Assembly: GCF_963677875.1 (NCBI RefSeq)
Contig: NZ_OY782565.1
Span: forward strand, 186,001-250,000
From: Thiomicrorhabdus sp.
Lineage (GTDB): Bacteria > Pseudomonadota > Gammaproteobacteria > Thiomicrospirales > Thiomicrospiraceae
Length of the DNA stretch: 64,000 nt
Direction of reading: 5' to 3'
Part shown: positions 37,295 through 49,523 of the stretch, one piece after another
Layout of the letters: each line of letters begins with the position of its first letter
Numbering within the stretch: the stretch's first letter is position 1
Notes under the pieces: generated by a model
The model's input: only the letters and a program-made list of their open reading frames with translations
The model's database searches: none
Told to the model about the DNA's origin: nothing
Translations under genes and position numbers: made by a program

Positions 37295-39571
37295 TTACGA
37301 GTTGTCATTATTACCTAACAGGTTCAAGTTCAGAATATCCAAACCGCTCAACAAACCTTCTCCACCACTGCTTTCAGGAGGATTAGCTGTTGAATCCACA
37401 CCGTCAACAACATTATCAACTGCGTCAGTCACCTGGTCAGCAAGCAGATCAACCGCCTGAGTCACATCGTTGGCACCAAGAATGCTGTCCAGAACATCAG
37501 TCACTTCGTAAACCACATTATCAACGGTGTCAGTCAAAGAGCTGACGTCGGTAAGTGCTTCCAACTCATCAGTCACACCATCAACCAGGTTATCCACCAC
37601 ACCGGTCAATTGAGTTGTATCCAAACCAAGTGCGTCACCGGCAAATTGATCAACCGCATCAGTCACATCATCAATAAACGGATCCAATTGATTTGCAACA
37701 CCTTCTCCGTAACCGATCAACAAGCTATCGACACCATCGGTTACACCATCAACCAAATCGGTTAGCGGATCGGTAAGCTGATTCAGTCCCAGTGCATCAC
37801 CCAAACCACCAACAACTTGATCAACAATACCGTCAACCGTATCAGTCAAGCCGCCACCAGCGCCGTTCGGGCCAGTGACCAGATCGTCGACACCTTGAGT
37901 CAATTGAGCGACAAGATCGTCGACACCCTGAGTAATACCAGAAGTATCAATGCCCAATCCACCGGCCAGATAATCCACACCGTCAGTCACATCGTCAACC
38001 AGTTCATCAACCGAATCGGTCAATCCAGTACCGGTATCATCCGCTGCTGGCGCAGCTCCGCTGTTTGAATCACCAACCAACAGATCACCAAGAACCGGAA
38101 TACCACCAAGCAGATCGCCTACAACCGGGATTCCACCAAGTAGACCACCCAGAAGACCGCTGTTACCGCTGCTACCACCGGTTAGACCGGTTAGTAGTCC
38201 GGAAACACCATCGGTAATATCATCAACTAGATCATCAAGCGGGCTCAAGTCAGCACCACCTAGCAGATCGCCAAGAGTGTCCGTCAAACCATCAACAACC
38301 TGATCAACCGAACCGGCATCACCAAGCAGGTCATCAACCGTTTCGCCCAAACCATCCTGACCGGTCAGAAGTTCTTCAAGGTCAGTTGTCAGGTTATCAA
38401 CTGGCTGATCCAATGCGCTTACATTAGTACCAAGCAGGTCATCAACCGTATTTGTCAAACCGCCAACCAGCTGATCGGCAGAACCAACAGGCCCCAACAG
38501 ACTGGTCAAGAAGTTTGGCAGATCCAAATTTCCGGAAAGGAGTTTATCCACCAGCTCTTGAACATCCGTAGTCACTTCATCAACCGGCTGATCCAGTTCT
38601 CCAAGGTTGGTTCCCAGCAAGTCATCAACGGTTGTGGTGACGCCGTCAACCAACTGATCGGCAGAACCGACCGGACCAAGAAGGCCTTCCAGGAAACCAT
38701 CCAAATCCAAATTACCGGCAAGCAACTCGTCTACCAGTTCCTGAACATCGGTTGTCACTTCATCAATCGGTTGATCCAAAGCACCGGTATTGGTGCCAAG
38801 AAGGTCATCTACCGTATCCGTTGCACCGCCAACAACCTGATCCACGGAACCATTTTCACCCAGAAGGTTATCAACGGTGCCAGCCAAGTCTTCTTTACCT
38901 GTCAACAGGTCTTCAAGGTCGGTTGTCAACTGATCTGTCGGATCATCAAGCGCGCCAAGATTCGTACCCAGTAAATCATCCACCAGAGAGGTTACATCGT
39001 CGATCAACTCATCCGCATAACCATATGGTCCGAGAAGGGTTCTATCGCCATCGGTCGGAGTGGTTGAAGGAGGCGTCACAATTCCGTTCGTTTCGCTTTC
39101 ACCGCCCATGGACGTACGGCCGACGATGACAGGGCCACCGATACCACCGTTCTCAGCGAGACCGAATCCAGAAGTAACACTACCTTCCGCACCAGTACGG
39201 TCAACAACATACCCGTAACCTGCAGCACTGCTTGGCGCACCAGCATCACCGGCTGCTGTAGCTTCCAATTCATTAATATCGGAAGTACCCAGCGCTTCGC
39301 CGATACTTTCCGCACCTGCAGCCGCATCCGTCGGATCCATTAGTTTTGCAACCGAAGTCACATCACCGTCCAAACGCATTTTAGTGTTGCTTCCAAGGTT
39401 AAGCTCATCGCCGTTCATCATGCTGACGCTGACTTTACCATCAAGAGTTTGTAACATTTCGCCACTGAATACCTGACTACCTACACCCAAAACTCTAACT
39501 TCACCGGTTGTAGGGTTTATAGCCTGTACAACGCCTTCAAGGCTTGTTACTTCTCCAACTATAGTAGACAT
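37295..39571 (-). CDS. Repeat-rich protein with LapA-type retention module and TAAG site
   Basis: About 758 residues from the ATG at 39571, which has GGAGGA four bases upstream; the longer frame starts inside that ribosome site. Residues 1-104 form the retention module (TIVGEVTSLEGVVQAINP, VFSGEMLQTLDGKVSV, ELNLGSNTKMRL). Residues 105-108 are TAAG, coded at 39248-39259, at almost the same residue number as the LapG site of Pseudomonas LapA. YVVDRTGAEGSVTSGFGL follows, as in LapA-type proteins. The rest is Asp/Val/Leu-rich imperfect repeats (VDDLLGTNLGALDQP) and GIPVVGDLLGGIPVLGDLL, a motif shared with the next gene. No RTX calcium repeats are seen, and no membrane segment. Confidence 0.75.
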   Translation of the reverse strand: MSTIVGEVTSLEGVVQAINPTTGEVRVLGVGSQVFSGEMLQTLDGKVSVSMMNGDELNLGSNTKMRLDGDVTSVAKLMDPTDAAAGAESIGEALGTSDINELEATAAGDAGAPSSAAGYGYVVDRTGAEGSVTSGFGLAENGGIGGPVIVGRTSMGGESETNGIVTPPSTTPTDGDRTLLGPYGYADELIDDVTSLVDDLLGTNLGALDDPTDQLTTDLEDLLTGKEDLAGTVDNLLGENGSVDQVVGGATDTVDDLLGTNTGALDQPIDEVTTDVQELVDELLAGNLDLDGFLEGLLGPVGSADQLVDGVTTTVDDLLGTNLGELDQPVDEVTTDVQELVDKLLSGNLDLPNFLTSLLGPVGSADQLVGGLTNTVDDLLGTNVSALDQPVDNLTTDLEELLTGQDGLGETVDDLLGDAGSVDQVVDGLTDTLGDLLGGADLSPLDDLVDDITDGVSGLLTGLTGGSSGNSGLLGGLLGGIPVVGDLLGGIPVLGDLLVGDSNSGAAPAADDTGTGLTDSVDELVDDVTDGVDYLAGGLGIDTSGITQGVDDLVAQLTQGVDDLVTGPNGAGGGLTDTVDGIVDQVVGGLGDALGLNQLTDPLTDLVDGVTDGVDSLLIGYGEGVANQLDPFIDDVTDAVDQFAGDALGLDTTQLTGVVDNLVDGVTDELEALTDVSSLTDTVDNVVYEVTDVLDSILGANDVTQAVDLLADQVTDAVDNVVDGVDSTANPPESSGGEGLLSGLDILNLNLLGNNDNS

Positions 39572-39741
39572 ATTGTCCTCCAAATATATTGTTAGGCTGT
39601 AAATCGAATCTTTCTTAAGTTAACTAAAGTTTATCGAAGCCAGCCCCAGCCTGCTAGTGTACCAATGGACAGTATTGACACTTTTTTCTAAAAAAATGTA
39701 TCGGGCAACATCCGCTTTAGTGAATACTTCACCGAAAAAAC

Positions 39742-39821: not shown

Positions 39822-41165
39822 TTAACCCAACAGGCCGTCAAGCAAACCGGTAACCGGAGCCAGAATACCCAGAAGGCCGGCGTCACCGCTGGTTGACGCA
39901 GAGGCTGACGCGTTGCTGCTACCGGCTGATGCATCTGCAGATGCAGAACCTTCCGCAGCACCAGGATCAATACCTAGAAGCGTATTCAACAGACCGCCAA
40001 TTAAACCGTCATCAGCCAGTAAATCTTGGATATCAAGCGCTTCAGCACCATTGTTGATTAATTCACCAACAATCGGCAAACCACCAAGTGGGCTGCTGTC
40101 ACCCAACAAAGCACCGCCCAATCCTTCAGCACCCAACAGGTGAGTTAACACGCCGTCTTCACCTAAAACAACGCCAACCAGCTGTCCGGCAAGACCTTCG
40201 GCACCCAAAAGACCGTCAACACCAGCGATATCGTGGATGATGCCGGAAGTTCCAAGAATGTCGCCAACAATCGGAAGGTCTCCAAGCGTACCAAGAAGAT
40301 CACCGACCAACGGCAAACCGATCAACAAACCGCCATTATCACTTCCGAAGAAGTCACCTACTACAGGAAGACCGGATAGAAGGCTTCCACCACTCAGCAA
40401 GTCACCAACTAGCGGCAAATTACCAAGCAGACCACCAACCAGACCGTCTTCAGCAAACAGACCACCGATTACCGGAAGATTGCCAAGAATCGGAATTGCC
40501 CCACCATCAAAAATTCCATCAACAATGTGTGAAATTTCAGTCAACAAGTTTCCTGCCGGAATGGTTTCATGCAAATAATCCGTCAATTCAGTAATCAAAG
40601 GACTCGCCGCACGCAATTCACCGATCAGAGGCTTGACCAGCAACTCGGTAACATCACCAACAACCGGAATCGATTCCAAAAGCGTAAAAGTACCTGCGAC
40701 GCCGTCACCTTGCAACAACCCACCGCCTAAAGGAAGCAAATCACCAAACATCAAGGCCGAGTCCAAGATTTCATTCACAACCGGAATACTGCCCAAAGTT
40801 GTCAAAGCCGGCTCAATACCCGCTCCGATTACCGGAATTTTATAACCGACTTCAACAAGATCCGACGCTGTTCCGGTTCCCATGAAAGGCTCTGAAATGG
40901 TTTGCAACTCCTGAATGATCGGCGATGCAGCAACTTTTGCAGTGATCGGTTCAATGATAGACGCACCAGGCACAGCAGCGTGCAGAGTGCTTGTCAGGAA
41001 ACCGACATCTTCACCAATATACGGAATAAAAGGGGAACCTACGGCAAGCAAATTCAAACTTGGCCCTACCAAAGGCAATTCATTGACCAATTGAAGCGCG
41101 GCGGCGACGCCGTCGTCGGGATGAGGGTTTGTATTTGGATATACATTCAAGAAACTTGTTAACAT
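39822..41165 (-). CDS. Glycine/leucine-rich repeat protein, third of the cluster
   Basis: A 447-residue protein of imperfect repeats around a core like LPVVGDLLGG / LPIVGDILG. The N-terminus (MLTSFLNVYPNTNPHPDDG) lacks both a retention module and a clear signal peptide. A Ser/Ala-rich linker (ASADASAGSSNASASAS) leads to a short hydrophobic tail GLLGILAPVTGLLDGLLG, similar in character to the tails of the two upstream-lying proteins. GGAGCAG precedes the ATG. The shared VVGDLLGG motif and location suggest the three genes have a joint function, probably surface or secreted, but this is inference. Confidence 0.6.
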   Translation of the reverse strand: MLTSFLNVYPNTNPHPDDGVAAALQLVNELPLVGPSLNLLAVGSPFIPYIGEDVGFLTSTLHAAVPGASIIEPITAKVAASPIIQELQTISEPFMGTGTASDLVEVGYKIPVIGAGIEPALTTLGSIPVVNEILDSALMFGDLLPLGGGLLQGDGVAGTFTLLESIPVVGDVTELLVKPLIGELRAASPLITELTDYLHETIPAGNLLTEISHIVDGIFDGGAIPILGNLPVIGGLFAEDGLVGGLLGNLPLVGDLLSGGSLLSGLPVVGDFFGSDNGGLLIGLPLVGDLLGTLGDLPIVGDILGTSGIIHDIAGVDGLLGAEGLAGQLVGVVLGEDGVLTHLLGAEGLGGALLGDSSPLGGLPIVGELINNGAEALDIQDLLADDGLIGGLLNTLLGIDPGAAEGSASADASAGSSNASASASTSGDAGLLGILAPVTGLLDGLLG

Positions 41166-42479: not shown

Positions 42480-42692
42480 ATGATTACAATGTGTCCGCAC
42501 TGCGGCGCTCTCAACAGAGTCGCCGAAAACCAACCCTCAGCCAAAGCCACCTGCGGCAAGTGCAAGCAATCCCTGTTTACCGGTAAACCGGTAGAAATGA
42601 ATGCCGAACAGTTTCAACGCACTTTAAATAAAAGCGATCAACTACTGGTTGTGGACTTTTGGGCACCTTGGTGCTCATTTTATGGGAACTAA
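42480..42692 (+). pseudogene. trxC: trxC (thioredoxin 2), 5' fragment
   Basis: Encodes the N-terminal half of thioredoxin 2. The zinc motif is CPHCGALNRV and CGKCKQSLF (two CxxC pairs), followed by the thioredoxin fold up to LLVVDFWAPWC. The codon TGC at 42672-42674 is the first active-site cysteine. The reading frame then continues six codons into foreign sequence and stops. The missing part (GPCKGFAPVFAQ onwards) is found at 49293. AAGGAG supports the start. Confidence 0.92.
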
Positions 42693-42934
42693 TTTTTATG
42701 CTTTACCGATAAAAATAATGGTAAAGGCGACATTCACTAATACCAATCTTAAAAATTGTGCATTTCCAACCCCAACATCTAAATCTAAAATTGAGAAAAT
42801 CCCCCAAAATAAGAACAATGTTTGAATAAACATTAATGTCCGTGTTCGCCCATCTAAGAAAAATTTCGTAGAGAAACTTGCTTGACCACTCAATAAAAGC
42901 CATACTTTGGAAAAATATAAATACAGATAGGCTT

Positions 42935-45900
42935 ATGGATATTCAGTACTTGGACCCCAATGGAATTAACCCATTTGAAGTTAAAGCTCATAACAAGCTA
43001 AGAAAAGCACTACCCGATTCATGGAAAGCGTATGCTTCTCTTGAAATTCTGGGAGTCCAGAAAGGCGTAGCCCCTGAAATTGACTTAGTCATCGTCGCCC
43101 CGGATAGAATCATTCTTGTCGATCTTAAAGAATGGAACAACACCATAACATCAAAAAATGGCAATTGGATTAGCGCTGGCCATACTCATCCCTCACCAGT
43201 TCGAAAAATCAACTACAACGCTAAACTACTGCTCCAGAAGATTCAAAAACATGCCTATAAGCTGCCACAGAAAAAACCTCCTTTTATCATGGGGTGTGTT
43301 GTGCTTTGCGGCACAGCAGGAAAAGAAAAACTCAGTGAAGAAGAGCAGGCAAAGGTATTTACCTGCGATGAATTTGCACAAATAGGCAAGCAAGAAGTTC
43401 GCGACGAACTTTTAGGTCAAGTTTATACAAAATTTGCTAACCGAGAAGAAAGACCAAATGCCTATTTAGCGTTTTGGGACAAGTTTTTTTCAACAGACAG
43501 CAATGATTTTGCGCCCAGAGCCTATACTTTTTCTCAATACAAACAAGTCGGAAGGCCACTGTTTAAACATAGAAATGGTATCTATAAAGAGTTCGAGTCC
43601 GTGCATGTAGAGAACAAGTCTTATCGAGCGTTAATGAGAAGATGGGATTTTCTTGCAAGCGACATAAATGACCTTGGAATTGATCCCAAAAAAAGAAAGG
43701 AAATAGCGAATCGTGAATTCAACGTTCTTGGCTACCTAGATCAATTTGGTGACCGCGATGTAGAAGAAAGCCATCTTAAGATTAAAATGGTTCCATCGGC
43801 CGGCGACATCCCTCTGGATTTTTGTGAGCTTTATGATTGGCCAAAAAACAAAATGCGGCTTGATGACTTTATGGCACGTAACAATGCATTAAGCATTGAA
43901 ACCAAAATCCCGCTAATGGAAAAGGTTTTATTAAACCTTTCCAAGATTCATGAATTAAACGTAGCACACAGAGATTTAGGCATTCATAGTATCTGGATGG
44001 CATTGCCAGCTGAAGTCATATTTTCAAATTTCTTGAGCTCAACGTATCCTGACAACAAAGGTATTAGCGTTAATAATCTTAGGGGATTGTTAAGCAACAA
44101 CAGTTCAAGTCTTCCTGAAGACGTCTACGATGATCCTAATGGCACACCATTTTCTCGAGACATCTATCAAATTGGTGCCGTCATTCATTATATCGCTTAC
44201 GGAAGTTACCCAGCCAAGAATACAGATGGTTTCTATATCATCGACGCTCAAGAAGAATCCAAACTGTCTCAAAAGCTATATGGCTGGATGAAGACGGCTT
44301 TAAGCGAAGATGCGACCAAACGATTTAAAAATGCAACAGATGCGCTAGAAAGCTTTGTCGATGTCGTTAAAGGTGATTTTGAAAGCAAATTAAGCGTCAA
44401 GACAAACTTTATCGAGAATCTCATCACTGACATCAACCCTTATCTAGATTTCAAGATAGGAGAAATGATTTCTCAAAATGGCAATGCATCAACATACAAG
44501 GATACAGAAGGTTACCACGTCATCAAAATCTGGTCGGGTGCAAATCTTTATAATCCGGACAAAACACCAAAAGTTAGAGCCATTAACTTTCTCGAGAATA
44601 TTGAATCTCTAAAAGAGTCGAAGCTTAACTGCACACCTGAAATTGTAGACTTCGGTTACAGCCAGTTAACATCCTCTATTTATTTGCGATATAAATGGAT
44701 AAATTGGGCAACTTGGGAGTCTTGGTCGGAAGTGGCTACCGATATAGACTTGGTACATCCTGTTGCCCAAAAGCTGCTTAAATCTGTCGGCGAATTACAT
44801 GACCACGGCTTTTCTCATCTTGATATGCAGCCAAAAAACATCATTGTCAATGAAGATGAAAACAAGCTGGTATTTATCGACCTGTTTGGGTCGCCAGGGC
44901 AACATATTGAAGAGACTCCGGCATATCTGCCTGAAAACCATGAAGCACTTAGTGACGCATCCAATAACCGATTCGCAGCAATCAAGCTTATTCACGAGCT
45001 CTACGAAAAGCTTGGCGAGGTGGCTATAACACTTCAAACCGAGCAGCTTTTAGAAAAGACAGAAATCATCTCAAAAGACGTTGAAGACTTTCAAGAAACT
45101 CTAGAAAAAATCATTAACCCGGTCGAAGAGGTTCAGACCCCGATATTTACCATAAAGAGTAAGTTTTTTGAAAACGAGCATGAGTTACTAGCAGACAATG
45201 GCGTATTTTATGTCCATTTTAGAATACAAAACAACAGGAAGGGAAAGGATCCACAATTAAAGATCACGATAACTGGCCGTTTAGAGCAGCTTGAACTCTC
45301 TTTCAATGAAAAGTCACTAGCATTTGAACACGCAAGAATTAAAGAAATTGACCAAGCAAGGTTTATCTCCAATAAGCGGTCTTGCCATTTAAGCCTTGAA
45401 GCCAAAATATCTATAGAGAGCAATCACTTTTTAGCTTGCGAAGCGTTACCTGAACTTTTATTTACGAGGCCAGAATATAAAGACTTCATCGCCCCTGAGG
45501 TAGACAATTCTAAATATAACGGTGAATTGTCCAGCAAAGAACTTGCGATTGAAACCAAGGAAATCTGGAAGGCCTTGATGGACACCGAAGAGGATGCCCA
45601 TCCAAAAATAGAAGTTCAAGGCAATATCTTTGAAAAAGGAGAGTCTCGAGAGCTCTGCTTTAAGTATACAAGCGCCAGTACATTCGAGTTTGATTTAAAA
45701 ACAGATGAAATACAACTTAAAAGAAAAGTTGGAGGCAAGTCTACACAAATAGCGAAAGTCATTGATTATGACGGCAATCTCATGACTATTCTGAGAACAC
45801 GTGGTAGTTTTGCGAACACGATTAAAGCGGGAGATTCTTTTACTCTTGTGAGTACGCTGAGCCAATCTTCAATACACAAAAGACATAAAGCAATCACAAA

Positions 45901-47794
45901 CATCATTCAACAAAAATGCGTCATTAAAAATCTCACGCGATACTTCAACCCAACTCTTAATCTGCCGCCAGAGGATTATGGAGTAGTCGTAAGCGATGCA
46001 GAGCTTGATATTTATTCAGAAGTAGATGAAAACGGAAAATTCATCAAAGGCCTGAATGAAAGTCAAAGAAAGGCGTTTAAGAACCTCTATCGCTATGGTC
46101 CGGTAGGTTTATTACAAGGACCACCCGGTACAGGTAAAACCTCGTTCATCAGTTCCTTTATTCATTATTTGATTTCCAAAGGTGAGAAACATATTTTGTT
46201 GGTCAGCCAGTCCCATGAAGCTGTCGACAATGCCGCGCATAAAGTTAGAACTCTTTTTAGGGAAAACAATATTGAATTGGACATTGTCCGACTAGGTGAT
46301 GAACGACAAGTTTCTTCTGAATTGAGAGATGTTCAAGAAGATTCGCTAAGAGAAGCATTCAGAAGCAAATTCCAAGCAGAGTTTAAACAGCGTTTTTTGT
46401 CTTTATCCAAAGTCTTTGGGATTAAGGAAGCTTACCTAAAAGAGATAATTGAATTTGAAAAATTCTTAGGTATAACGCTCGAAAGGTTGATTTTCCTGAA
46501 AAAAAACAAGAGTTCTTCTTCCGAAATTAAGAGAAAATGCGACAAAACAGAGCAATTATTCGAAGAAAAATTTGAAGCATTTTGCGATGGCAAAGAGCTT
46601 AAGTTTCCACAGCAAGACACCCCTATAGACAAGATAAGAGATAGGATTTATGAGTTATTGGCACAAAAACATGAAGTTCATAATGAAAACACTGTAGACA
46701 GGGTTAAGAAAACCTTTTTGTTAACGAAAGAGTTTATAGACACATTGTCTAATTCAAAAGCGAAATTCCAAGACTTTTTGGTACGCTCTCGCTCTCTAGT
46801 ATGTGGAACATGTGTCGGGATTGCTCGAAATCATTATGAATTAGAGCAAAATACTTTTGATTGGGTCATTATTGATGAAGCAGCTCGCTCTACAGCCAGC
46901 GAGCTTTCAATCGCGATGCAAGTCGGTAAAAGAATCCTTCTGGTGGGAGACCATAAACAGCTGGCACCCATGTATGAAGAAGAGCATATCAAAAGTGCGC
47001 TTTCTGAGCTTAGAGGGATTACTGAAGAACAATTAGTCCGCAGTGACTTTGAGAAAGCCTTCTTATCCGGATATGGCCAAAATATCGGACAAACCTTATC
47101 GGTTCAATACCGGATGGTTGAGCCGATAGGCAATTTGGTCTCAGATTGCTTTTATGACGGATTCTTATCAACCGGAAAGACATCAGGCGAGTCCTATTTT
47201 AACGAACTGCCAAAACAATTCGGTGGCACAGTTACCTGGGTGGATACATCGGATGCCGGTTCCAACGCCTATGAAAAGAAGGTTGGCAATACCTATCAAA
47301 ACAAATATGAATCGGACTCAATCTTAAAGCTTGTTGAGGAGCTCTCTTCTCAGGAAGAGTTTTATGAAGAGCTGAAGACAAAAAGCGACAAAGAAGTACC
47401 GATTGGGATTATTTGCATGTACAAGGCACAAAAAACAGTGTTACTTCGCTCACTCTATGAAACTTCATGGGGAAAAAACATGATTCAACAAGGAATGCTC
47501 AAAGTCGATACTGTAGATAGCTATCAGGGTAAAGAAAACGAAATCATTATTCTAAGCCTTGTTCGTAGCAATAAGAGGCAAAAGTCTGGTTTCTTAGCTA
47601 ATGAGCAGCGCTTAAATGTGGCGCTTTCCCGTGCAAAAGAAAGGCTCTATATTTTTGGTAATACAGATATGTGGGCCAAAAAGAACAATAAAACTCCTAT
47701 AGAAAAAGTCTTAAATTATATCCAAAGCAATAAAGACTCTGATTATCAAATCATCCCATCGACATCATTTTTAAAAGGCGACACTCATGAGTGA
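42935..47794 (+). CDS. NERD / kinase-like / SF1 helicase protein, resembles Mokosh type I MkoA
   Basis: A 1,619-residue multidomain protein. An N-terminal NERD domain has APEIDLVIVAPDRIILVDLKEW, with the Asp and Lys of nuclease-related folds. A first kinase-like region (HRDLGIHSIW, about residue 344) lacks the usual Asn and looks inactive. A second (HLDMQPKNIIV, about 627, then FIDLFG) keeps the catalytic loop pattern. The C-terminal third is an SF1 helicase of the COG1112 kind: GPPGTGKTSF (about 1061), VIIDEAARS (about 1313), DSYQGKENEIIILS and LNVALSRAKERLYIFG. Start chosen at ATG 42935 rather than TTG 42878. The stop overlaps the next ATG by eight bases. Anti-phage function is inferred from the domain set. 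Confidence 0.8.
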   Translation: MDIQYLDPNGINPFEVKAHNKLRKALPDSWKAYASLEILGVQKGVAPEIDLVIVAPDRIILVDLKEWNNTITSKNGNWISAGHTHPSPVRKINYNAKLLLQKIQKHAYKLPQKKPPFIMGCVVLCGTAGKEKLSEEEQAKVFTCDEFAQIGKQEVRDELLGQVYTKFANREERPNAYLAFWDKFFSTDSNDFAPRAYTFSQYKQVGRPLFKHRNGIYKEFESVHVENKSYRALMRRWDFLASDINDLGIDPKKRKEIANREFNVLGYLDQFGDRDVEESHLKIKMVPSAGDIPLDFCELYDWPKNKMRLDDFMARNNALSIETKIPLMEKVLLNLSKIHELNVAHRDLGIHSIWMALPAEVIFSNFLSSTYPDNKGISVNNLRGLLSNNSSSLPEDVYDDPNGTPFSRDIYQIGAVIHYIAYGSYPAKNTDGFYIIDAQEESKLSQKLYGWMKTALSEDATKRFKNATDALESFVDVVKGDFESKLSVKTNFIENLITDINPYLDFKIGEMISQNGNASTYKDTEGYHVIKIWSGANLYNPDKTPKVRAINFLENIESLKESKLNCTPEIVDFGYSQLTSSIYLRYKWINWATWESWSEVATDIDLVHPVAQKLLKSVGELHDHGFSHLDMQPKNIIVNEDENKLVFIDLFGSPGQHIEETPAYLPENHEALSDASNNRFAAIKLIHELYEKLGEVAITLQTEQLLEKTEIISKDVEDFQETLEKIINPVEEVQTPIFTIKSKFFENEHELLADNGVFYVHFRIQNNRKGKDPQLKITITGRLEQLELSFNEKSLAFEHARIKEIDQARFISNKRSCHLSLEAKISIESNHFLACEALPELLFTRPEYKDFIAPEVDNSKYNGELSSKELAIETKEIWKALMDTEEDAHPKIEVQGNIFEKGESRELCFKYTSASTFEFDLKTDEIQLKRKVGGKSTQIAKVIDYDGNLMTILRTRGSFANTIKAGDSFTLVSTLSQSSIHKRHKAITNIIQQKCVIKNLTRYFNPTLNLPPEDYGVVVSDAELDIYSEVDENGKFIKGLNESQRKAFKNLYRYGPVGLLQGPPGTGKTSFISSFIHYLISKGEKHILLVSQSHEAVDNAAHKVRTLFRENNIELDIVRLGDERQVSSELRDVQEDSLREAFRSKFQAEFKQRFLSLSKVFGIKEAYLKEIIEFEKFLGITLERLIFLKKNKSSSSEIKRKCDKTEQLFEEKFEAFCDGKELKFPQQDTPIDKIRDRIYELLAQKHEVHNENTVDRVKKTFLLTKEFIDTLSNSKAKFQDFLVRSRSLVCGTCVGIARNHYELEQNTFDWVIIDEAARSTASELSIAMQVGKRILLVGDHKQLAPMYEEEHIKSALSELRGITEEQLVRSDFEKAFLSGYGQNIGQTLSVQYRMVEPIGNLVSDCFYDGFLSTGKTSGESYFNELPKQFGGTVTWVDTSDAGSNAYEKKVGNTYQNKYESDSILKLVEELSSQEEFYEELKTKSDKEVPIGIICMYKAQKTVLLRSLYETSWGKNMIQQGMLKVDTVDSYQGKENEIIILSLVRSNKRQKSGFLANEQRLNVALSRAKERLYIFGNTDMWAKKNNKTPIEKVLNYIQSNKDSDYQIIPSTSFLKGDTHE

Positions 47795-49163
47795 AAACCC
47801 AAAAGAAATCGTACTAAATGAAGTCAACTTTACACTTCCTGTTAAAAGGTTTTTAATCGAATTTTCGGAAAGAAAACAAAAAGAAATGTCGGTCACCCGG
47901 GAGTTTGTTTTGCGTTTCATTTTTTTAAGTGAGGCATGCACACCGGCTGACATAACTGAATTTTTTGGATTTACGTTTAAAGAGGCAAAATATGTATTAA
48001 AGTCTCTGGAAGAATCGAGCTATATCAAATGGGTTAACGACAGCGTATCGTTAACCGACTATGCAAAGAACAACTTTATCGCTAAAGAAGATAAGGATAT
48101 GCCGCGCTTTTTTGAAGTATCAGATGATACAAGGAATATTGGTTTCGAACTATCGGGTTATAACATACTGACGATTCCTAAATCAGAACAAAATAATAAG
48201 CTAAGTATTGACCTAAAAGTCTCGAATGAAAACTATATAGATATGGCAGAGAAAGCTAGAAAAGCCTTTAGTCAGCAGTATTATGAGTTTACCAATAACA
48301 TAATCAAACTAGGTGGTGACAGAGAACTTTACAAGATTAATCATGTTGAGCCTAAGACCGATAGTCTCTTTACATTTAAAACCGAAGTTTCCTTGGACGA
48401 ACCCAGCTATAGAAATGTGTTTTTGACCTTCGATGATGAAAGAGTATACGACCTAGATACTGAGGGGCGCATTTCAGGCATCATCAATGACTCATGGGAA
48501 AAGCCCAAGCCGCTAAACATACATAGATTAAACACTGGCTTACAAATATTTATAAAGGAGACCAAGAACACGTTGCTCGCAAATTATTTAAGAGATGGGG
48601 TTTTTTCGGTCACTCAGTTAATGAAAGACTTTGCGACAAGCAATATAAAACAGGACGTGGATACTCAACTAATTATTGGTAATCTTTATACAAAAGAAAA
48701 TCGAATCAAAATTAAGGCGCTGCTCGAATATGCAGGCAAAACTTCATTATCGCGGCCAAAAAGAATGTTCTGGACGGTTGACCCTGAAGGAAAACAATGG
48801 GGGCATACGTCCTCTATAATGGATTTAGTAAAAACGTTTGTGAACTACATCGATGGTGATTTAAACAATCTAAATTTGCTTCTCAATACAGGGGCTAATA
48901 ATCAAGAACTGTTTTACCAGTATAAGGATAGCTATCGTAGTGCTTTTTATACAATAGAAAGCACGAGAAATAGCTTTATCAACGAGGCCACAGAATTTGT
49001 GGTAATTCCAGGCTTATTTGCGGCCGGCATATTCCATTTAGACGGTGTAAATGACAGTCGAATGCCGGTACCGATAGGAATGATTACGGTAAACCCTGAA
49101 CAAGTTGAAATGATTACAGAAAAGTTCAATGAGTGGCTAGATAAGCCAAATACATTGAACTAG
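47787..49163 (+). CDS. Partner protein of the NERD-kinase-helicase, MkoB-like candidate
   Basis: A 458-residue protein without a recognised enzymatic domain. Residues about 35-90 (TPADITEFFGFTFKEAKYVLKSLEESSYI; key part ADITEFFGFTFKEAKYVL) fit a winged helix-turn-helix. The rest is a mixed alpha/beta region with no motif that I can name. Its ATG lies within the end of the helicase gene (ATGAGTGA overlap), which indicates translational coupling and a joint complex. In two-gene Mokosh type I systems the second gene is likewise of unknown fold; the match here rests on gene order and size only. Confidence 0.7.
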   Translation: MSENPKEIVLNEVNFTLPVKRFLIEFSERKQKEMSVTREFVLRFIFLSEACTPADITEFFGFTFKEAKYVLKSLEESSYIKWVNDSVSLTDYAKNNFIAKEDKDMPRFFEVSDDTRNIGFELSGYNILTIPKSEQNNKLSIDLKVSNENYIDMAEKARKAFSQQYYEFTNNIIKLGGDRELYKINHVEPKTDSLFTFKTEVSLDEPSYRNVFLTFDDERVYDLDTEGRISGIINDSWEKPKPLNIHRLNTGLQIFIKETKNTLLANYLRDGVFSVTQLMKDFATSNIKQDVDTQLIIGNLYTKENRIKIKALLEYAGKTSLSRPKRMFWTVDPEGKQWGHTSSIMDLVKTFVNYIDGDLNNLNLLLNTGANNQELFYQYKDSYRSAFYTIESTRNSFINEATEFVVIPGLFAAGIFHLDGVNDSRMPVPIGMITVNPEQVEMITEKFNEWLDKPNTLN

Positions 49164-49292
49164 ACGATTGGCTAGGGAAGCGCAGAACAAGTCCAAATGA
49201 CTTCAGGCAAAGTAAAATTTAGGCTAAGCTGAATTAGTTCAGACCCAATCTGACACCTCGCTGAAGTCAAAGGGGACTTTATAACCCCTTAT

Positions 49293-49523
49293 TGCGGGCC
49301 CTGTAAAGGTTTCGCCCCTGTGTTTGCTCAGGCAGCTTCGCAGTTTGAACCTAAAGCGCGATTTGTTAAGATCAACACCGAAAACGAGCAGATGCTGGCG
49401 GCTCAATACGGAATTCGTTCGATTCCAACGCTGGCGCTTTTCCGAAACGGCAAAGAAATTACCCGCGTTTCCGGGGCGATGGACCTGCAGAATTTCAGCC
49501 GCTGGCTGCAACCGCATCTGTAA
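49293..49523 (+). pseudogene. trxC: trxC (thioredoxin 2), 3' fragment
   Basis: Continues trxC from the first active-site cysteine: CGPCKGFAPVFAQAASQF, then FVKINTEN, the cis-proline segment IRSIPTLALFRNG and the normal end NFSRWLQPHL. No start codon with a ribosome site is in frame, so no protein is expected from this half alone. Joined to 42480-42674 it gives an ordinary thioredoxin 2. Confidence 0.9.

Follow-up and report, generated by a model that had tools for sequence, protein, structure and literature searches.

The 64,000-nt stretch of Thiomicrorhabdus sp. DNA analysed here (contig NZ_OY782565.1, positions 186,001 to 250,000; hereafter the window) contains a trxC gene, encoding thioredoxin 2, that is split by an insert carrying mkoA and mkoB, the two genes of the Mokosh type I anti-phage system. 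The genome (G000) comprises 2.58 Mb in 9 contigs, and the insert locus lies on a single contig of 486 kb. The insert occupies positions 42675-49292 of the window (6,618 bp) and has a G+C content of 0.386, against 0.500 in the remainder of the window. Its features are collected in Table 1.

The left half of trxC encodes 65 TrxC residues, the last of them FWAPWC, and runs through the first cysteine codon of the WCGPC active site. The open frame on this side extends over 42480-42692, with the final five residues, SFYGN, and the stop (42692) supplied by the insert, and the right half resumes in frame at 49293 with CGPCKGF. Joined with one TGC removed, the halves form a 420-nt frame (excluding the stop) with no frameshift, equal in length to the intact homologue at locus L002 of the closest relative, G014, in which trxC is unbroken and the flanking DNA on both sides can be aligned at 77-83% identity. 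This bears out the initial annotation, which held that trxC had formerly been one gene, split at the first WCGPC Cys codon, with TGC present on both sides of the insert. The annotation had also suggested that alignment to an intact trxC might reveal a duplication of either 3 or 9 bases; the exact duplication is TGC only (3 bp), and the longer match exists only in imperfect form, CCTTGGTGC on the left against CCTTATTGC on the right (7/9 identical). The trxC halves show a non-synonymous divergence (dN) of 0.052 and a synonymous divergence (dS) of about 2, the dS of the right half not being computable, and the split gene carries two private changes at otherwise invariant columns, the same number as two intact homologues. 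Since the halves have no frameshift, a low dN and few private changes, their undecayed state suggests a recent event, without dating it. A terminator-like hairpin followed by TTTTAT straddles the left junction (42660-42677), where the trxC sequence GCACCTTGGTGC is nearly palindromic; 0.6 such sites (standard deviation 0.8) are expected by chance.

Table 1. Coordinates of trxC, the insert and its recognisable parts within the window (MITE, miniature inverted-repeat transposable element; SF1, superfamily 1; PLD, phospholipase D).
Feature	Positions	Strand	Evidence
trxC (thioredoxin 2), 5' half	42480..42674	+	Zn ribbon PF21352 and PF00085; 86% identity over 66 residues to intact TrxC of G014
TGC, left junction copy	42672..42674	+	Sequence
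Left non-coding part of insert	42675..42934	.	No homologue found
mkoA, 1619 aa: NERD nuclease-like, two kinase-like and SF1 (Upf1-like) helicase regions	42935..47794	+	PADLOC MkoA
mkoB, 458 aa: predicted N-terminal winged helix and weakly PLD/TrmB-like part	47787..49163	+	PADLOC MkoB
MITE left part with terminal inverted repeat (tip pattern 49173-49194)	49173..49229	+	95-97% over 57-62 bp to closest copies in congener G013
IS481-family terminal inverted repeat remnant inside MITE	49230..49259	+	28/30 identical to locus L087 (G013)
MITE right part	49253..49292	+	27 bp at 96% to G013 copies
TGC, right junction copy	49293..49295	+	Sequence
trxC 3' half, CGPC to stop	49293..49523	+	PF00085 on open reading frame 49320-49523; in frame with 5' half

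Genes of the insert

Both proteins match their PADLOC profiles, MkoA with 1496 bits over profile positions 1-1602 of 1607 and MkoB with 267 bits over positions 1-439 of 454. The genes are directly adjacent and their reading frames overlap by 8 bases. We placed the start of mkoA at M20 of a longer open reading frame (42878-47794), since a Met is invariant there in an alignment of six MkoA proteins. Pfam recognises NERD, kinase and SF1 helicase families in the first gene and gives no match to the second at an expect value (E) of 0.001; neither protein has an integrase or transposase domain in Pfam, and the earlier statement that the insert lacks a recognised recombinase therefore holds. MkoA retains a D...DxK stretch of nuclease-like type, a pair of kinase-like catalytic loops, both Walker motifs (A and B) and the later SF1 helicase motifs, and the solved structures nearest to it by sequence are NAM7/Upf1 helicases. 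For MkoB, an AlphaFold2 model built from 13 sequences has a mean predicted local distance difference test score of 80.4, and Foldseek retrieves TrmB-like regulators and phospholipase-D folds, including Zucchini and NucT, with query template modelling scores of 0.12 to 0.24; the predicted combination of a winged helix with a PLD-like part is a lead only.

Judged by their sequences, the two genes can firmly be predicted to form a complete type I Mokosh system, with both components matched near full length, adjacent and in the order seen in other type I systems. The affinity of the helicase to Upf1/NAM7 agrees with the SF1_Upf1 class given for MkoA in PMC10925250, and PMC11291487 states that viral transcripts are degraded by Mokosh. 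The location inside trxC sets the present copy apart, as does the low identity of its MkoA to the relatives described below.

The two edges of the insert

The right edge, between mkoB and trxC, is formed by a remodelled MITE. Its left tip is intact and its right tip is not, so the window copy is a remnant in which one of the two terminal inverted repeats is intact. The middle of the MITE is missing, and a 30-bp IS481-like piece stands in its place. Against one end of an annotated IS481 element on Xenorhabdus plasmid II, the match is 31 of 37 positions; the two ends of that element are inverted repeats that enclose the annotated transposase. A direct plasmid search gave the Xenorhabdus match just E 0.4, although for each of 10 reference ends 0/500 shuffles scored as well as the remnant. 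An exact match of the piece was not found in viral contigs. We infer that the scar may have formed when an IS481-family element inserted and a deletion followed, for which CACCTC may have served as microhomology. No second copy of the scar is present in G000. The insert shares a 30-bp terminal inverted repeat with IS481-family insertion sequences, but only as a remnant, without transposase and away from the trxC junction. An earlier candidate for the 30-bp G013 match, the end of a mobI-like gene, was dropped, as annotated IS481 elements indicate an IS481 inverted repeat that overlaps the gene end. The G013 locus in question (L087:941-2981) holds a MobI-like gene (PF19456) convergent with a tyrosine integrase (Arm-DNA-bind_3), with IS481-type ends between them, and resembles the edge of an integrative element.

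On its right side the MITE can be traced as far as GGGGACTT. The whole 33-base right end was matched as well by 0/500 shuffles for each of five reference tips; the outermost 13 bases before TGC, taken alone, are no better than 34.5% of 2000 shuffles in matching the canonical tip. With up to 3 mismatches allowed, the tip pattern occurs 181 times in congener G013 (88+93), 36 times in G042 (18+18) and 10 times in G011 (5+5), but not at all in G014 and once in G000, at the edge of the insert; the reversed pattern, used as a control, occurs in none of the five genomes scanned. A looser similarity search found some MITE match at E 0.01 in 15 of 32 genomes of the genus (G000 included), with high-score matches over most of the element in G013, G011 and G042. 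Those full copies that scored at both tips are 260 to 308 bp long, and they occur beside many forms with internal deletions. TA plus tip was found at both ends in 19 of 32 fetched loci; the other 13 reflect contig-end cuts, divergence or pattern misses, and one of them (L203) visibly has CA on one side. At locus L008 of G013, the sequence that follows mkoB in the window also follows an intact trxC, as the multi-copy MITE sits there: the copy (L008:1922-2166) lies right after the trxC stop, the contig ends within it, and with 181 tips in that genome this is probably a coincidence.

The left edge is of a different nature. For the non-coding part between trxC and mkoA, DNA searches gave no significant match in its own genome (best other match E 0.27), in 31 other genomes of the genus (best E 0.016, short), in plasmids (E 0.8) or in phages (E 0.3). 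A MITE tip was not seen at this end, 251/300 and 102/300 shuffles being as good in the two orientations. A 9-bp word, GAACTAATT, shared inversely near the two ends, had suggested an IS481 end here as well, a candidate that we rejected: in 20 comparisons (10 reference ends, each in both orientations), between 31 and 300 of 300 shuffles did as well. A terminal inverted repeat shared by the two ends of the insert is not significant, its score being equalled by 209, 21 and 33 of 300 shuffles at 40, 60 and 100 bp, respectively, the value at 60 bp being borderline. A minus-strand frame at about 42696-42929 at this end could encode a peptide that looks hydrophobic (about 77 residues); no truncated gene was recognised in the part tested (42699-42893), for which Pfam gave no match up to E 5 and plasmids none up to E 1. 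Rfam gave no match on three loci around the junctions.

Occurrence in other genomes and arrival of the insert

The mko genes are isolated among the relatives sampled. MkoB, searched as a single sequence at E 0.001, was found in 1 of 32 genomes of the genus and 1 of 369 genomes of the class, and MkoA, at the strict cut-off of E 1e-100, in 1 of the 369, the single genome being G000 each time; very distant MkoB proteins can escape such a search, as members of the family are only 18-27% identical among the relatives aligned. Beyond these samples, a one-protein query against genome contigs found no MkoA relatives, and an alignment query was then used. Among 80 of the 198 loci that it confirmed, the two nearest full-length MkoA proteins are those of Thalassotalea loyana and Aliiglaciecola lipolytica, at 37-38% identity, and a Providencia plasmid carries a shortened copy at 36.6%. 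A mkoB match accompanies mkoA in 16 of 20 loci compared, and the 14 loci matched in viral contigs correspond to the helicase part of MkoA only. The mko system was probably acquired horizontally, in line with its low G+C, and a MITE-rich congener was probably the source or an intermediary; such a donor is suggested because the tip pattern that occurs once in G000 is repeated 181, 36 and 10 times in three congeners.

The account that we consider probable, and hold with moderate confidence, is that a horizontally acquired Mokosh fragment with a MITE/IS481-scarred edge was joined, untargeted, into trxC. On import, the fragment with the mko genes would already have carried at its right edge the scar left when an IS481-family end remodelled a mostly TA-flanked MITE. 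An untargeted and probably illegitimate event, with TGC as an overlap of 3 bp, would then have joined it to trxC at the first Cys codon and broken the gene in a cell in which another thioredoxin gene remains. Import and illegitimate joining are favoured over transposition because the edges are unlike each other, the exact duplication is of 3 bp, and the broken scar has no second copy in G000. Among the routes of movement offered by the initial annotation, the best fit is with a cargo that had recombined or a flank that had already been lost, given the MITE/IS481 scar and the lack of a second copy; movement in trans is less favoured. Once in place, the system would presumably act as elsewhere, the Upf1-like helicase with its nuclease-like and kinase-like parts operating together with MkoB against phage.

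Several observations weigh against this account. Only about 13 bases separate the right junction from the expected end of the MITE tip, which would be a coincidence if joining were fully random. Some transposases leave a duplication of 3 bp, an imperfect 7/9 duplication exists, and at 60 bp the inverted repeat has a borderline score (21/300). The mko genes may also have arrived first, with the MITE inserting later. Finally, the mko genes were found in none of the 31 congeners, so that it is the MITE alone that points to the donor.

The proximity of the join to the MITE end lends some plausibility to a role of the MITE in mobilisation: a transposase acting on it, either one-ended or together with a second, left MITE since lost, could have moved the mko genes into trxC. 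The right part of the MITE does lie at the boundary, and the score of its 33-base end, owed mostly to the inner part, is beyond the shuffles for all five tips. Gene-carrying MITE composites such as the TIME-COMPs are also known (PMC13367494), and here too a MITE end bounds inserted genes, on one side. The insert differs from such composites in having a single MITE, remodelled and with a broken tip, and in that nothing was seen that ties it to Tn3-type elements. Moreover, TA flanks most MITE copies at both tips but is lacking at the trxC join, the outermost 13 bases are not tip-like, and the left end has no tip. The DDE_3 family (PF13358), our guess at an IS630-type partner transposase, was found in none of 5 genomes in a search aimed at this family alone. 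We regard this route as rather unlikely, with some chance of being correct.

A non-autonomous transposon with diverged ends of its own, moved in trans and leaving a duplication of 3 bp (TGC) or 9 bp, would account for the TGC on both sides, the 7/9 match and the borderline score at 60 bp. However, the terminal inverted repeat is not significant at 40 or 100 bp, neither end of the insert has a second copy in G000, and a recent 9-bp duplication would be expected to be perfect, given the undecayed trxC. This origin appears improbable.

The initial annotation had pointed to the conserved DNA encoding WCGPC as a very good target for a site-specific element, and the insertion does fall exactly on these codons. 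A search of 40 related genomes (E 0.001) returned 29 with a TrxC match, G000 among them; all 28 relatives with a TrxC-like match (E 1.7e-11 or better) keep an open frame of 141 to 205 residues, and an intact trxC coding sequence was recovered by pattern from 15 of 19 fetched loci. In the sample of the class, TrxC is matched in 163 of 369 genomes, G000 included; for the other 162, a second split at this codon was not demonstrated (about 150 of the 163 inspected, among the matches listed). In these, short TrxC frames occur in G000 and G064 only, which makes targeting of the WCGPC DNA unlikely. Contig 200 of G064 (locus L230) stops inside trxC at TGGTG, within the codons of the split, as would result from a break in the assembly or from a second insertion. 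Ending at the same codons, this contig is compatible with targeting, and it neither proves nor excludes a second insertion there, so that the proposed search for inserts at the same codons has yielded no demonstrated second case. TrxC does not adjoin the mko genes in the 20 other mkoA loci, within the fetched flanks, some of them short; at one of them (L125) there is a single weak thioredoxin-like match (33% over 51 residues), about 3.2 kb from mkoB. With no recombinase domain found in the insert either, a site-specific element aimed at thioredoxin active-site DNA is very unlikely.

Equally little credence can be given to a broader version, in which thioredoxin active-site DNA would be a recurrent landing site for recombinase-less defence cargo delivered in trans via MITE/IS481-like ends, with G000 and G064 as two instances and the trxC promoter, which is redox-controlled in some bacteria, driving the defence operon. 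If recurrence at thioredoxin codons were established, it would suggest an unrecognised route for defence genes. An assembly artefact, for which nothing specific speaks, is very unlikely, as both trxC halves and the neighbouring DNA, alignable to G014, flank the insert on the one contig.

All recognised parts of the insert are of known kinds, in an unusual arrangement. In the literature, within partial coverage, we found no description of an insertion of this kind, whether of defence genes in trxC or of trxC as an island site. Under the favoured account of an untargeted join, a compact defence system without mobility genes of its own can land, seemingly by accident, in a conserved redox gene, and the debris of mobile elements at one edge can indicate the donor lineage.

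The host and the surrounding window

In G000 the TrxC search gave two matches only, the left half of the split gene and a 124-residue thioredoxin with WCGPC encoded on contig C6, neither of them a second trxC. The mko genes run in the same direction as trxC, and transcription of trxC may continue into mkoA past the hairpin at the left junction. The host is probably a sulfur oxidiser, because the window holds soxC. Two long imperfect-repeat proteins (DDLLGTN..., LPVVGDLLGG...), possibly surface proteins, are encoded on the minus strand at 37295-39583 and 39822-41165.

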